Shown here: one piece after another, positions 13,748 to 17,249 of the stretch
Layout of the letters: every line of letters begins with the position of its first letter
Position numbering within the stretch: the first letter of the stretch is position 1
Assembly: GCA_019234295.1 (NCBI GenBank)
Contig: JAFALK010000045.1
Coordinates: forward strand, 1-64,000
Source: Roseateles sp.
Lineage (GTDB): Bacteria > Pseudomonadota > Gammaproteobacteria > Burkholderiales > Burkholderiaceae_C
DNA: 64,000 bases
Direction of reading: 5' to 3'
The notes under the pieces: generated by a model
Seen by the model: the letters and a program-made list of their open reading frames with translations, nothing else
Database searches by the model: none
What the model was told of the DNA's origin: nothing
Position numbers and translations under genes: made by a program

Positions 13748-13798
13748 TTGCCCTACGAAGGCAGGGGGTTGTTGGTTCGATCCCAACCAGGTGCTCCA
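13748..13798 (+). pseudogene. 3' half of a tRNA-Arg(ACG) gene (attachment-site scar)
   Basis: The anticodon stem TTGCC/GGCAG closes a 7-base loop CTACGAA with anticodon ACG and U33. A variable loop follows, then a perfect T-arm (GTTGG, loop TTCGATC, CCAAC), acceptor strand CAGGTGC, discriminator T and encoded CCA. The upstream sequence has no D-arm and no GCACCTG acceptor partner, so only the 3' half is present. Such displaced halves mark the far end of integrative elements that use a tRNA gene as attB. No integrase gene is in the window. Confidence 0.75.
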
Positions 13799-13948: not shown

Positions 13949-13977
13949 GAAACAAAGAAGCCCGCTTGACGCGGGCT
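13949..13977 (-). terminator. Intrinsic terminator for the island gene pair
   Basis: Stem AGCCCGC / GCGGGCT with a 5-base loop. On the minus strand it is followed by a T-rich tract (TCTTTGTTTC). It sits just past the stop of the 72-residue gene and closes the two-gene unit. Confidence 0.7.
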
Positions 13978-13999
13978 CCTGAGGCAAGCTGGGGAAGGT

Positions 14000-14218
14000 T
14001 TACCGTGTGGCGGCAAACGCCAGCGCCAGTTCATCCTCACGCGACTCGAAGGTACGTCGCTGGGCCAAGTAGCTCTCTGCTTGTTCATTAGACAAGCCAC
14101 CGATCTTGGAGCCGGCGATTCGACGAGCTTGAATCGCAGCTTCGTAGTCGGACTTCAAAGAATCACGCGTGACCACCTCCTGGCGAGGTGCGCTCCGACG
14201 GTCTGAAAGAAATGCCAT
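14000..14218 (-). CDS. Small protein (72 aa) paired with the proteasome-like gene
   Basis: Unrecognised cytoplasmic protein. AGAGAGG lies five bases before the ATG, and the start is only 10 bases after the stop of the Ntn-hydrolase gene, so the two form an operon closed by a terminator. The sequence is hydrophilic and mostly helical: a basic N-terminus (MAFLSDRRSAPRQE), a central SDYEAAIQARRIAGSKIG and a charged end (SREDELALAFAATR). No signal peptide or membrane segment. The tight pairing suggests a partner, adaptor or inhibitor of the upstream protein; this is inference. Confidence 0.7.
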   Translation of the reverse strand: MAFLSDRRSAPRQEVVTRDSLKSDYEAAIQARRIAGSKIGGLSNEQAESYLAQRRTFESREDELALAFAATR

Positions 14219-14228
14219 AAGTGCCTCT

Positions 14229-15515
14229 CTAGTTGCGCTGTAAGCGATTGAGATAACGCGGGTTCAATGCAGGATCGAAGTACAACTTCCGCTTGATCCA
14301 AACCAGTCCTTCGGACTTGGTGATCACGGCCACATCAATGGGACCGCCGACAGATTGGGTTCTAGAGGTGACTTTTTCCTTCAAAGATTCTAGCAATACT
14401 AGCGTTTCCGCCAATTCGGCCAGCTCTTCGACGTTCAGGCTCGCCACCGAGGACCAAAGCGGCACATAGTGCGCCTGCAACGTTGCGTTGGTCCATTCAT
14501 CCTTGAACGCTCCGGCACGCGCTTGGACTTCAGCCGCAATCTGCGCCACGTCGGGAGCCGCAATGCCCCCGGCGACGCAGGCTGCCTCGGCGACCGCTGC
14601 GGCATGCGTTCTGAATGCTTGTGCAACGGCCTTCCAGACACCCGGACTCGCGCCCTGGCTGAAAGTCTCAACCATGTCCGCCTTGGCGAAAGCCTCAATA
14701 AGAGACCGCGTCGTGGAGTAATCCACGCTTCCCTTTTTGTCATCCTTCCACGCCACGGATTCGCCTACAAAGCCGAAAACCTCTTTGCTCAGGTAGCCAG
14801 GAAGGTACTCGTCCTCACCGAAGCCGGCGATCACAATTCCAGTGCTGGCGAGGATCACGTCAGGACGCTTGAAAGCGAGGTCCGCCGCCGCCGCGAGGAG
14901 ATCCGCGACCTGAATGTGCGGCTTGAGGTGAGGCCAGTCTTCGGCAAGGTAGGCGTCGACAGATGTGGTCAGTGCTGCGTGATGGCTGGCCAGCAGTTGT
15001 GCTTGGTCCGCTTGATTGACGCCATTGAACGTCGGCGCATTGTTCAGGTGCTGTGCGGTCAGATCGGCGAACCCCTGCTGCCAGTCCTGCGCCAATGTCG
15101 CGGGCGGCACCGTTGTGTCCCGGAGCGTCGGCTTCGCATCAACCACCTCAGTGATGATTTGTACCGCCGCTAGTCCGATGGCCCGCTTTCCACCGGCATC
15201 ACGCACCGCTGATGGGAGCACGCCTTGTGCGGGATCGTTCAGGAAGGCGAGGAAGTTGTCCCAGTAGCCGTGCAGCGTTGGGAATGTGCCCTTACCGAGC
15301 TTGCTGCGATAGACCTTGATGATCAGTTCCCAGGGGACACCGCCCAGCGTACTGCTGTTGTTGATCATGACGGCCACCGGCGCATCGCAGGCCAACTGGA
15401 AAATTTTGTTGGCGCCGGAGGAGTAGGTGGTCTTCCCTTGCTCCGTATACGTCACCGCGCTGTCCGCAGCCAGGGCAATCGCCAGTCGATTGGCGACCGC
15501 AACCTCACACGTCAT
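14229..15515 (-). CDS. Proteasome-beta/HslV-like Ntn-hydrolase with long C-terminal extension
   Basis: Protein of 428 residues whose N-terminus matches the proteasome beta fold. After Met removal the first residue is Thr. An Asp then falls at position 17 in LAADSAVT, aligned with VAVDSRAT of beta subunits including Thr21, and a Lys lies at position 36 in NKIFQL, where proteasomes have Lys33. These are the Thr1/Asp17/Lys33 catalytic positions, the last shifted by three. The fold region covers about 200 residues; the remaining ~230 are helical and unrecognised. The ATG at 15515 has GGGGAG five bases upstream, which puts Thr exactly at position 1. It is intact, upstream of a 72-residue gene, and divergent from a broken restriction gene. 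I recall similar unannotated bacterial proteins but know no experimental study. Confidence 0.75.
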   Translation of the reverse strand: MTCEVAVANRLAIALAADSAVTYTEQGKTTYSSGANKIFQLACDAPVAVMINNSSTLGGVPWELIIKVYRSKLGKGTFPTLHGYWDNFLAFLNDPAQGVLPSAVRDAGGKRAIGLAAVQIITEVVDAKPTLRDTTVPPATLAQDWQQGFADLTAQHLNNAPTFNGVNQADQAQLLASHHAALTTSVDAYLAEDWPHLKPHIQVADLLAAAADLAFKRPDVILASTGIVIAGFGEDEYLPGYLSKEVFGFVGESVAWKDDKKGSVDYSTTRSLIEAFAKADMVETFSQGASPGVWKAVAQAFRTHAAAVAEAACVAGGIAAPDVAQIAAEVQARAGAFKDEWTNATLQAHYVPLWSSVASLNVEELAELAETLVLLESLKEKVTSRTQSVGGPIDVAVITKSEGLVWIKRKLYFDPALNPRYLNRLQRN

Positions 15516-15950
15516 ATCCGCTCCCCATTTGATGCTTGTTTGGCGCGAAGTGTTGCCAGCCGAGGCCACGGCGAGAAGAGGGTAAACGCGAGGCTGTGAC
15601 CTGGACCTCGTCAATGAGAACTACCTGATGGTGCCCCTCTGTACAGGACGGTCTGGCAGGTGTCGTATTACGAAAAATAGTCGGATCGAATGCTCGCCGT
15701 CTACTGCGCGTGTCAAGCGAACTCGATCTTCGGGAGCGCAGACCTAGGGCTGGATGCCACGGAACCTAGCGCCTTCACGCTGACGTCAAACACGGGAATG
15801 CGCGATTCACTTGAGAGAGACTACGAGGCAACGGCCGGCCGACATTCGGGCAGACGGCGACCGAGGGCCGGCGCAGTATCAATTGCGGATTCGAGAACTA
15901 CACCAGGTGAGCTGGGTATTGTCCGGACTGGGTCCAATCAGGGAGCTGCG
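15516..15950. other. Divergent intergenic region of the island
   Basis: Holds the start regions of the leftward Ntn-hydrolase gene and the rightward restriction-enzyme stump. An open frame runs through it in phase with the latter but lacks a ribosome site and family-like sequence, so I do not call it coding. No repeat or RNA gene seen. Confidence 0.5.
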
Positions 15951-16295
15951 ATGGCGAATAAACGGGAGATCGTGGGCTTTCCCGATCTGGCGAATGCTGA
16001 TCTGCTTATCGACGCGACTTATCAAGGTGGCAGAGCCGGCAACTCGGGCGATGACCCTCTCAACCCGCTGCTGAAAGTCAGTCTGATGGGCGGCTTCCGG
16101 TATCGGGGTTCGCTCGATGCTCTCAAGCTGGTCGTTCTCACGACCACCATGAGCGACCCCGACTGGCCAGATGAGATCGATCGGGAGACGGGGATCTTCA
16201 CCTACTACGGGGACAACAAAAAGCCGGGAAGGGCGTTGCACGAAACGCCACGGAACGGTAACAAGATTCTGAAGCAGCTCTTCGACATGGCGCAC
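15951..16295 (+). pseudogene. 5' stump of an AspBHI/MspJI-type restriction endonuclease gene
   Basis: The first ~115 codons match the N-terminal domain found in AspBHI-like modification-dependent restriction enzymes: LLIDATYQGGRAGN, FRYRGS, LKLVVL, DPDWPDEIDRETG, TYYGDNKKPGRALHETPR and NGNKILKQLFDMAHG. The ATG at 15951 has GGGAG five bases upstream, so the original start is kept. After DMAHG the frame continues into sequence with no resemblance to the family and the catalytic domain is absent. It is not expected to cut DNA. Family assignment is from memory of the motif order. Confidence 0.65.
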
Positions 16296-16306
16296 GGCAC
16301 TGCGCC

Positions 16307-16558
16307 ATGTCTGCCACTGACACGCTCGGTGTCGACGGTGAATTGCGTGATGGCGGGGGCGGGCTGGAGGCGCGGGACGACGACGATGGCGAGTCTGACG
16401 ATGGTGGAGTCGGCGCCGGAGGCGCCATTGACGATGACTTCGAGGTGTCGGGTGGCTCCGTCAGGCGTCCTGCAACGATGGGCATCTCGTTCTTTGTGGA
16501 GTTGGCGACGGAGGGCGCGCTGGAAATCGAGCTGCCCGCGATGCACCGGTTTGAATGG
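16307..16558 (+). pseudogene. Fragment of unknown, possibly DrmA/helicase-like, defence gene
   Basis: This stretch is open in a different frame from the restriction stump. It encodes a Gly/Asp-rich linker (EARDDDDGESDDGGVGAGG) followed by RRPATMGISFFVE. A run of acidic residues before an RPSSMGLSFxV-like block is typical of the N-terminus of DISARM-type DrmA helicases, so it may be a piece of such a gene. It ends where M2 peptidase sequence begins. The assignment is weak; a chance open frame is possible. Confidence 0.3.
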
Positions 16559-17249
16559 CCGATATCAGCGGGCCTATAAGGGACAGCCGTTCATGTTCCG
16601 CGGCGGCGCTGATGACGGTTTTCACGAAGCAATCGGCGACTCGATCGCACTGGCCGTCACGCCGGACTATCTCAAGGAGATTGGCCTCATAGACACCGTG
16701 CCACCGGCCGAGGCCGATATCCCGCTGCAACTGCGCACAGCGCTCGACAAGATCGCCTTCCTACCTTTCGCTCTGCTGATCGACAAATGGCGCTGGCAGG
16801 TCTTTTCAGGCCAGATCAAACCGGCCGACTACAACAAGGCTTGGTGGGCCCTGCGCGAGCAATACCAAGGCGTGGCCCCGCCGGTTGCGCGCAGCGAAGC
16901 CGATTTTGATCCCGGAGCCAAGTACCACATCGCCGGCAACGTGCCCTACGCACGCTACTTCCTCGCGGCCATCTACCAATTCCAGTTCTACAAGGCCATG
17001 TGCGCGGCGAGTGGCTACCAAGGCGCGCTCAACCGCTGTACCTTCTACGGCAGCAGGGCCGCGGGCGACAAATTGAAGACGATGCTCGAAGCCGGCCAAT
17101 CGCAGCCTGCGCAGGCCACGCTCAAGGAGATGACCGGTACTGATCATCTGGACGCCGAGCCCATGCAGGAATACTTCCGCCCTTTGTACGTGTGGCTCAA
17201 GCAGCAGAATGAAATCAACCATGCCCAAACCGGGTGGAAGAGCGAATGA
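16559..17249 (+). pseudogene. 3' stump of an M2 (angiotensin-converting-enzyme-like) peptidase gene
   Basis: The C-terminal ~230 residues of a bacterial peptidyl-dipeptidase of family M2 are intact: YQRAYKGQPFMFRGGADDGFHEAIGD (in two blocks), FLPFALLIDKWRWQVF, YNKAWWALREQYQGV, SEADFDPGAKYHIAGNVPYARYF and YGSRAAGDKL. The zinc motif HExxH, which should lie just before YQRAY, is missing together with the whole N-terminal part. The open frame joins it to the restriction stump, but this is a recombination scar, not a functional fusion. It marks the right-hand junction of the island with old chromosome. Confidence 0.8.

Follow-up and report, generated by a model that had tools for sequence, protein, structure and literature searches.

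What does a proteasome-like gene followed by a gene of 72 codons do in a bacterial genome? The question is raised by two genes on the minus strand of a stretch of 64,000 nucleotides from Roseateles sp. (contig JAFALK010000045.1), referred to below as the window. The first, at 14229-15515, translates into a protein of 428 residues with threonine as its second codon (MTCEVAVANRLAIALAADSAVTYTE...GANKIFQL); the second starts exactly 10 nucleotides past the stop of the first. Our best reading is that the two form a mobile cargo cassette, in which a threonine-hydrolase module is carried together with a dedicated partner. Judging from its predicted fold and its active site, the window enzyme is very probably an active proteasome-like hydrolase, and it is highly probable that the two genes work together. 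A role of the cassette in anti-phage or superinfection immunity has, in our view, an even chance, an estimate drawn from the location of the relatives and from a fast-evolving partner rather than from an assay.

We looked at the fold of the enzyme with AlphaFold2, for which an alignment of 61 sequences was used as input. The model of the 428-residue protein had a mean predicted local distance difference test score (pLDDT) of 92.9 and a predicted template modelling score of 0.88. When it was superposed with VIA-align, the best match was the yeast 20S beta5 subunit, residues 2..411 of the model being placed on residues 1..192 of beta5 (Z 18.1, 184 residues, 3.2 A). Residue 2 of the model paired with residue 1 of beta5, so that codon 2 sits on the catalytic Thr1. 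In the PDB, Foldseek placed 20S beta chains at the top (best 6bdf, expect value (E) 1.7e-4, probability 1.00), and among viral models the top match was a phage protein named proteasome beta (E 1.2e-4). A second model, made for a relative that is 28% identical (L085), displayed the core elements in the same order. Hence AlphaFold2, VIA-align and Foldseek all point to the alpha-beta-beta-alpha fold of proteasome beta subunits, as the initial annotation of the window had predicted when it proposed a proteasome-like N-terminal nucleophile (Ntn) hydrolase.

Relatives of the enzyme were gathered by scanning contig and genome collections seven times and by searching plasmid, phage and E. coli collections, followed by a profile scan. 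This yielded 240 full-length locus copies, with many repeat retrievals of the same contig among them; 121 were unique. A further 15 matches covered the profile incompletely, in some cases through divergence and not truncation, and were left out. Each of the 240 copies begins with Met, Val or Leu followed by Thr. Moreover, T2, D18 and K37 are present in 121/121 unique relatives, and these residues were absent from the peptide patterns used in the DNA scans. With the methionine removed they are Thr1, Asp17 and Lys36, the numbers given in the initial annotation, and correspond to a triad of the Thr1/Asp17/Lys33 type; their predicted conservation among homologues was thus borne out.

Sequence profiles recognized the enzyme far less readily. 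The window protein matched none of the Pfam families, even at E 10, a search of its own genome with PF00227 did not find the gene, and NCBIfam gave no match for it, while one relative (L006) reached TIGR03634 at only 0.046. A match to a curated profile is an aid to recognition and not a structural criterion, and proteasome-like families of this kind have been described as too divergent for earlier detection (PMC8665760). A profile of the family itself reached proteasome beta chains in the PDB at E 3e-4 through residues 388-404, which is a weak sequence link. Residues 2-39 gave further proteasome chains at E 0.03 or higher, among unrelated proteins of similar E, and after the first three beta chains the matches were weak and mixed (for example, apolipoprotein E at E 0.2). 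Therefore, the family assignment rests on the fold and the triad. The protein also matched, over its full length, phrog_5990, a phage family of unknown function (E 5e-78).

The model also located what is added to the proteasome core. Helices are inserted within residues 102-216, after helices H1 and H2, and within residues ~291-358, between H3 and H4. The initial annotation had described a large C-terminal domain; since the proteasome fold covers residues 2-411, nearly the whole chain, and is split by these two helical insertions, there is no such domain. In the survey by Fuchs, Alva and Lupas (2021; PMC8665760), which names 22 proteasome-like families, insertions at these two sites together mark PMI-3 and PMI-4, variants of the 'Proteasome homolog with Multiple Insertions', and its Table 1 lists PMI-4 as the sole PMI variant in phages. 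The window enzyme carries both insertions and none between strands S3 and S4, a pattern that PMI-3 shares, and its relatives are found in phage records and viral contigs. On these grounds we filed it as PMI-4-like; it appears to fit the published family, a placement set by the modelled architecture and phage occurrence and not by comparison with the representative HDY66466.1. PMI-4 likewise has a proteasome-beta core with N-terminal Thr, Asp and Lys, both insertions, no propeptide and no known AAA+ partner, and it is found in bacteria, some archaea and phages. The difference lies next to the gene: the survey reports no co-occurring genes and states that neither genomic context nor a co-occurring gene hinted at function, whereas here a small downstream gene accompanies most relatives.

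The enzyme shares the fold, the triad and a weak profile link with 20S proteasome beta subunits and HslV, but at 428 residues and with its two helical insertions it is about twice as long. Neither an alpha subunit nor HslU nor another unfoldase was detected among the window open reading frames (ORFs) scanned against Pfam, 20 chosen from 1-32 kb, in agreement with the earlier remark that no AAA+ unfoldase gene lies nearby. It is thus not an HslV. Helical insertions have been argued to be able to prevent double-ring assembly (PMC8665760), and with two of them in the modelled core an HslV-type double ring is probably not formed. The PPH and AAH homologs are, as described there, also phage-spread proteasome relatives, but PPH has ~140 residues and no H2, whereas the window family has ~425 residues with insertions (PMC8665760). 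A separate, ordinary proteasome/HslV-like gene is present elsewhere in the same genome (G000:C44:37995-38513, PF00227 E 4e-23).

We then turned to the small gene. In the window, the start of the 428-residue gene is preceded by GGGGAGCGGAT, a good ribosome-binding sequence, that of the 72-residue gene by GAGAGGCACTT, and a terminator-like inverted repeat lies just 3' of the latter. Translation and sequence therefore agree with the intact two-gene unit, including the strong ribosome site, that had been read from the sequence. In another genome (L002), a pair with the identical 10-nucleotide gap is retained, its enzyme being 82% and its small protein 64% identical to those of the window. Because this gap is kept and the triad is invariant among the unique full-length relatives, the window pair is more than chance.

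For the family as a whole, six of the 121 unique relatives had less than 200 nucleotides after the gene and were excluded. An ORF of 30-160 codons started no more than 30 nucleotides past the stop in 109 of the remaining 115 (median 55 residues). We compared this with control ORFs from the same loci. In the nr70 set (made non-redundant at 70%), an ORF of 30-160 residues within 30 nucleotides followed 58/63 enzyme genes versus 114/246 control ORFs, and one with both a Shine-Dalgarno sequence and an ATG followed 45/63 versus 30/246 (two of the 65 nr70 genes lay near a contig end and were omitted; the control ORFs were called mechanically at 250 codons or more and may include spurious ones). A small gene thus stands after almost every homologue, and this part of the claim of a dedicated small partner stood. 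Homology among the small genes themselves was seen within subgroups only, so the claim holds for position more than for kinship.

The small ORF is also kept as a protein, as far as substitutions tell. Its ratio of nonsynonymous to synonymous change (dN/dS) is well below 1 at moderate dS (L025/L090, 0.10/0.96; L047/L052, 0.17/0.80; L230/L027, 0.19/0.62), dS being saturated or undefined in most pairs; judged from these pairs, it is under purifying selection where synonymous change is moderate. At the same time it changes quickly: its dN exceeded that of the enzyme in 43/49 pairs, often about twofold, although these pairs, which overlap, are not independent. The products are mostly of 35-78 residues and polar; most are basic, 54/66 having a net charge above 0, and by eye they seem to be soluble charged helices that lack signal peptides. 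In a motif search with these 66 proteins, the log-likelihood was 148 at width 8 and 201 at width 11, versus 99-111 and 148-161 in five shuffled sets, and the sites came from motifs of subgroups. Phenylalanine was slightly enriched in the last six residues (22/66, where 1000 shuffles gave a mean of 15; p 0.023).

A hydrolase beside a hypervariable ORF of this size could also be a peptide-processing protease, which would trim the small ORF product, as a precursor, to a signal or antibacterial peptide. We consider this quite improbable, since the products by eye lack signal peptides and no export or immunity gene appeared in the neighbour tallies described below, among the best 25 families listed. 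Another use of such a fold is ligation. Connectase, a proteasome relative, ligates rather than degrades (PMC8665760), and a protein ligase or transpeptidase of that kind could well use a dedicated small protein as its substrate or carrier. However, connectase as described there is without H1-H2 and has a helical insertion between S3 and S4, whereas the model of the window enzyme has helices 62-73 and 81-93, and its strands 21-25 and 28-32 are linked by a turn of only two residues; it does not belong to the connectases. As no recognition motif is common to the small proteins either, a connectase-like ligase is an unlikely alternative, if slightly less so than peptide processing.

Small genes of this kind are annotated in a Providencia record and in two Streptococcus satellite records. 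In E. coli 120899 an unannotated ORF of 49 residues (L123 7308-7454) lies 23 nucleotides after WP_000123148.1, in the same position as the 72-residue gene of the window. Compact versions of the enzyme, of 271-274 residues, were seen in Bacillus and Sporolactobacillus (L008 9374-10195, L009 9377-10189); they too start with Met-Thr, and a small ORF comes after each of them.

To see where the pair resides, we looked at the records in which relatives occur. They are encoded in 165/184 pattern-matching stretches of viral contigs and in 13/50,697 phage records, 9 of which are Streptococcus phages or satellites. One prophage version recurs almost unchanged beside the antiterminator gene Q in 9/5426 complete E. 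coli genomes. In whole genomes they are rare, with 3/300 in the order of the window genome and 11/398 in its phylum, both counts including that genome. The mobile distribution expected from the window was thus recovered in phage records, viral contigs and E. coli prophages. In a Providencia phage the cassette is located between Q and the holin gene, near a methylase gene; in a Stenotrophomonas phage it lies on the opposite strand beside holin and lysozyme genes; among satellites, it lies at or near the end in two and precedes a RelBE pair in a third; and in a Streptococcus prophage it comes after the lysin gene. In the Streptococcus satellite Javan421 (L030), the enzyme gene is followed by RelB/RelE and HAD-hydrolase genes, which makes several cargo genes in its accessory region. 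In an E. coli prophage (L124 5787-7190), a divergent relative of 467 residues directly follows a helix-turn-helix (HTH) gene, and RecE and RecT genes are present in the same prophage.

The immediate neighbours, taken as the nearest ORF on either side of 72 nr70 loci, were also tallied (141/142 scanned, one neighbour of L053 being left out). Upstream neighbours were on the same strand within 300 nucleotides in 42/71 cases, and these 42 comprised 11 with HTH_3, 5 with Phage_CI_repr and 5 with Peptidase_S24, in overlapping classes. Among the best 25 PHROG families listed, repressors and regulators led for the 141 neighbours (phrog_4 in 13 and phrog_8 in 12, overlapping), and among the best 25 families of a second tally, type II methyltransferase and RmrA models had 3 members each.

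This preference for CI-like and HTH genes as the commonest same-strand upstream neighbours, and the lead of repressors in the PHROG tally, would also suit a lysogeny-switch protease, in which the hydrolase would cut a prophage repressor or anti-repressor with the small protein as trigger. ImmA, which acts with ImmR, offers an analogy for a repressor-cutting protease. Nevertheless, the tally assigns an HTH family to only a minority of the 42 upstream neighbours, again among the best 25 families listed, the cassette also occurs at lysis modules and in satellites, plasmids and chromosomes, and the E. coli copies beside Q lie on the opposite strand to it. We therefore hold a lysogeny switch, argued by analogy, to be unlikely, though it is the likeliest of the rival explanations. 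A protease of the phage structural module, acting in head or tail maturation, would account for one Porphyromonas phage copy that lies between portal/adaptor and neck/tape-measure genes. The other copies viewed are in satellites, plasmids or chromosomes, or beside Q, CI-like or lysis genes, and the presence of the family in phage records is sporadic, so that this explanation is the least probable of those considered.

Given the frequent lysogeny-expressed or lysis-proximal cargo sites in prophages, and the copies in satellites, protection of the lysogen is the most likely role of the cassette. No propeptide would be needed, as methionine aminopeptidase would expose Thr1, and the enzyme would then hydrolyse peptide bonds. 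The partner, probably flexible, would most likely bind the enzyme and set its timing or its target as an inhibitor, an adaptor or a sensor; that it is a restraint or sensor rather than a substrate is a possibility that we hold at less than even odds. A competing phage would disturb the partner, and the hydrolase would cut phage or host proteins, by which the cassette would protect the lysogen against other phages. The rexAB genes of phage lambda are also two cargo genes; they lie downstream of the CI repressor gene, are made in lysogens and exclude other phages. The likeness to a two-gene cargo of lysogens is drawn on arrangement, not on a comparison of sequence or fold, and it differs in that only some loci of the window family have an upstream repressor.

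Several observations weigh against an immune cassette with a dedicated partner. At E 1, the PADLOC (2023) models recognized neither the window protein (P0001) nor P0002 nor L018, and L006 matched only Cas5 at 0.0078, so that none of the four proteins scanned falls into a described defence system there. The small ORF was missing from the stretch tested in 6/115 unique relatives; one of the six, a Mesorhizobium copy, has an ORF of 65 residues that overlaps the end of the enzyme gene. In 6/49 pairs the dN of the small ORF ties with or falls below that of the enzyme, and no motif is universal to the 66 small proteins, which share motifs within subgroups only (for example, LREWQKKFNP). In a read-through fusion model, made from relatives whose two adjacent ORFs are in frame, with the stop between them ignored, the core was well predicted and the partner had a pLDDT of ~40, so we make no claim on docking or binding mode. 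The Porphyromonas phage copy, among portal, neck and tail genes, is inside a structural module. Finally, nine chromosomal neighbourhoods (94 ORFs) were mostly ordinary, with ABC transporters and kinases; integrase, IS4/5 transposase, GmrSD_N and AAA_21 were each present in 2/94 proteins (all among the best 25 of 95 families). A general enrichment in defence islands, which had been entertained, was dropped in view of these neighbourhoods and of nearest neighbours that are chiefly repressors or regulators, with few methyltransferases or RmrA.

As to novelty, the initial annotation knew of no described system with this layout. For the enzyme this did not stand, as it fits the PMI-4 of 2021 (PMC8665760). 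Literature searches, which covered few subscription journals and not bioRxiv, did not turn up the two-gene unit with its cargo positions, and the unit appears to be a new element built on an enzyme family already published and uncharacterised. A family that was named in 2021 without a function can now be tested through a pair that is conserved, with a fixed active site in the enzyme and rapid change in the partner. If the immune role is true, this protease is one that the PADLOC models missed in the four proteins scanned.

The coordinates of the pair and of the sequences around it are given in Table 1.

Table 1. Gene pair, active-site codons, signals and flanking sequences in the window.
Feature	Position	Strand	Evidence
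Proteasome-like Ntn-hydrolase gene (428 residues, phrog_5990, PMI-4-like)	14229..15515	-	Translation; PHROG profile E 5e-78, full length; AlphaFold2 model; structure alignment
Second codon (Thr), catalytic Thr1 once Met is removed	15510..15512	-	121/121 unique relatives; aligned with beta5 residue 1
Asp18 (Asp17 in the mature protein)	15462..15464	-	121/121 unique relatives
Lys37 (Lys36 in the mature protein; counterpart of proteasome Lys33)	15405..15407	-	121/121 unique relatives
Ribosome-binding region GGGGAGCGGAT ahead of the start	15516..15530	-	Sequence
Small partner gene (72 residues), 10 nucleotides past the first gene	14000..14218	-	ORF; position kept in relatives; 64% identical in L002
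Intrinsic-terminator-like repeat closing the unit	13950..13979	-	GCCCGC-GTCAA-GCGGGC, then TTCTTTGTTT
tRNA 3'-end-like sequence, possible attachment remnant (flank)	13774..13798	+	By eye only
Truncated methyl-directed restriction enzyme, AspBHI-type N-terminus (flank)	15969..16301	+	PDLC03203 E 2e-44; PF18062 E 6e-30
M2 peptidase C-terminal part, in frame with the restriction fragment (junction)	16560..17237	+	PF01401 positions 354-581 only

The unit is flanked on one side by a short sequence which we take to be like a tRNA 3' end, judging by eye from the T-arm pattern; ARAGORN finds no tRNA there, and the 25-mer occurs as a single copy in the window with up to 3 mismatches allowed. On the other side lies the AspBHI-type restriction fragment. 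It is part of a chimeric ORF (15690-17249, plus strand), in which this N-terminus runs in frame into a C-terminal stretch of an M2 (ACE-like) peptidase, covering the last 228 positions of the profile; no second M2 piece turned up when the assembly (86.7% complete) was searched with the profile. The same 20 window ORFs gave no integrase, transposase or AAA+ match in Pfam, and with its truncated, fused flank the island looks like a small remnant. The defence-like island of the initial annotation is thus weak in the window: a restriction fragment is present, but it is truncated and is the sole defence gene among the ORFs scanned.

A more local lead came from plasmids. In 5/10 plasmid records with a relative, four from Rhizobium and one from Mesorhizobium, the enzyme gene lies ~1.2-1.5 kb from a multiubiquitin gene, relatives of which occur in 170/72,556 plasmid records. 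The annotated region was inspected for three of the five, and for two Rhizobium records the distance comes from match positions only. An E1 (ThiF) gene adjoins the multiubiquitin gene in the three viewed records (L261, L262, L017), in two different arrangements, and DUF6527 and ClpP genes follow in the two viewed Rhizobium records. The four Rhizobium plasmids belong to one lineage (83-100% identical), and their copies retain a small partner ORF of 67 residues; the Mesorhizobium enzyme is 28.5% identical. From the different arrangements and this low identity, two independent joinings of the enzyme gene with multiubiquitin genes are likely. Rhizobial islands also carry toxin-like genes, however, so plain island clustering may explain the proximity. 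Among the remaining five plasmid records, three were viewed and had no annotated multiubiquitin gene within ~5 kb, one was unannotated there and one (Enterococcus) was not viewed. Similarly, 0/12 chromosomal stretches encoded a protein related to the multiubiquitin, E1, ClpP or ADP-ribosyltransferase-like proteins of the rhizobia (ORFs of at least 100 codons, the enzyme gene being in 9/12 sets). A ubiquitin link as a general feature was accordingly reduced to a lead confined to two rhizobial lineages. That an immune protease of phages and satellites, with a hypervariable partner sensing or selecting its target, was joined in rhizobia to a polyubiquitin-conjugation operon (multiubiquitin, E1, DUF6527, ClpP) as a bacterial counterpart of the ubiquitin-proteasome system is a long shot. 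Though local, such a link would bring ubiquitin-like tagging together with a proteasome-like enzyme, which is rare in bacteria. In one of these plasmids (L261 5784-6961), we noticed by eye, between the enzyme gene and the multiubiquitin operon, genes for an ADP-ribosyltransferase-like protein, a product of 60 residues and an HTH protein, in a toxin-antitoxin-like arrangement.

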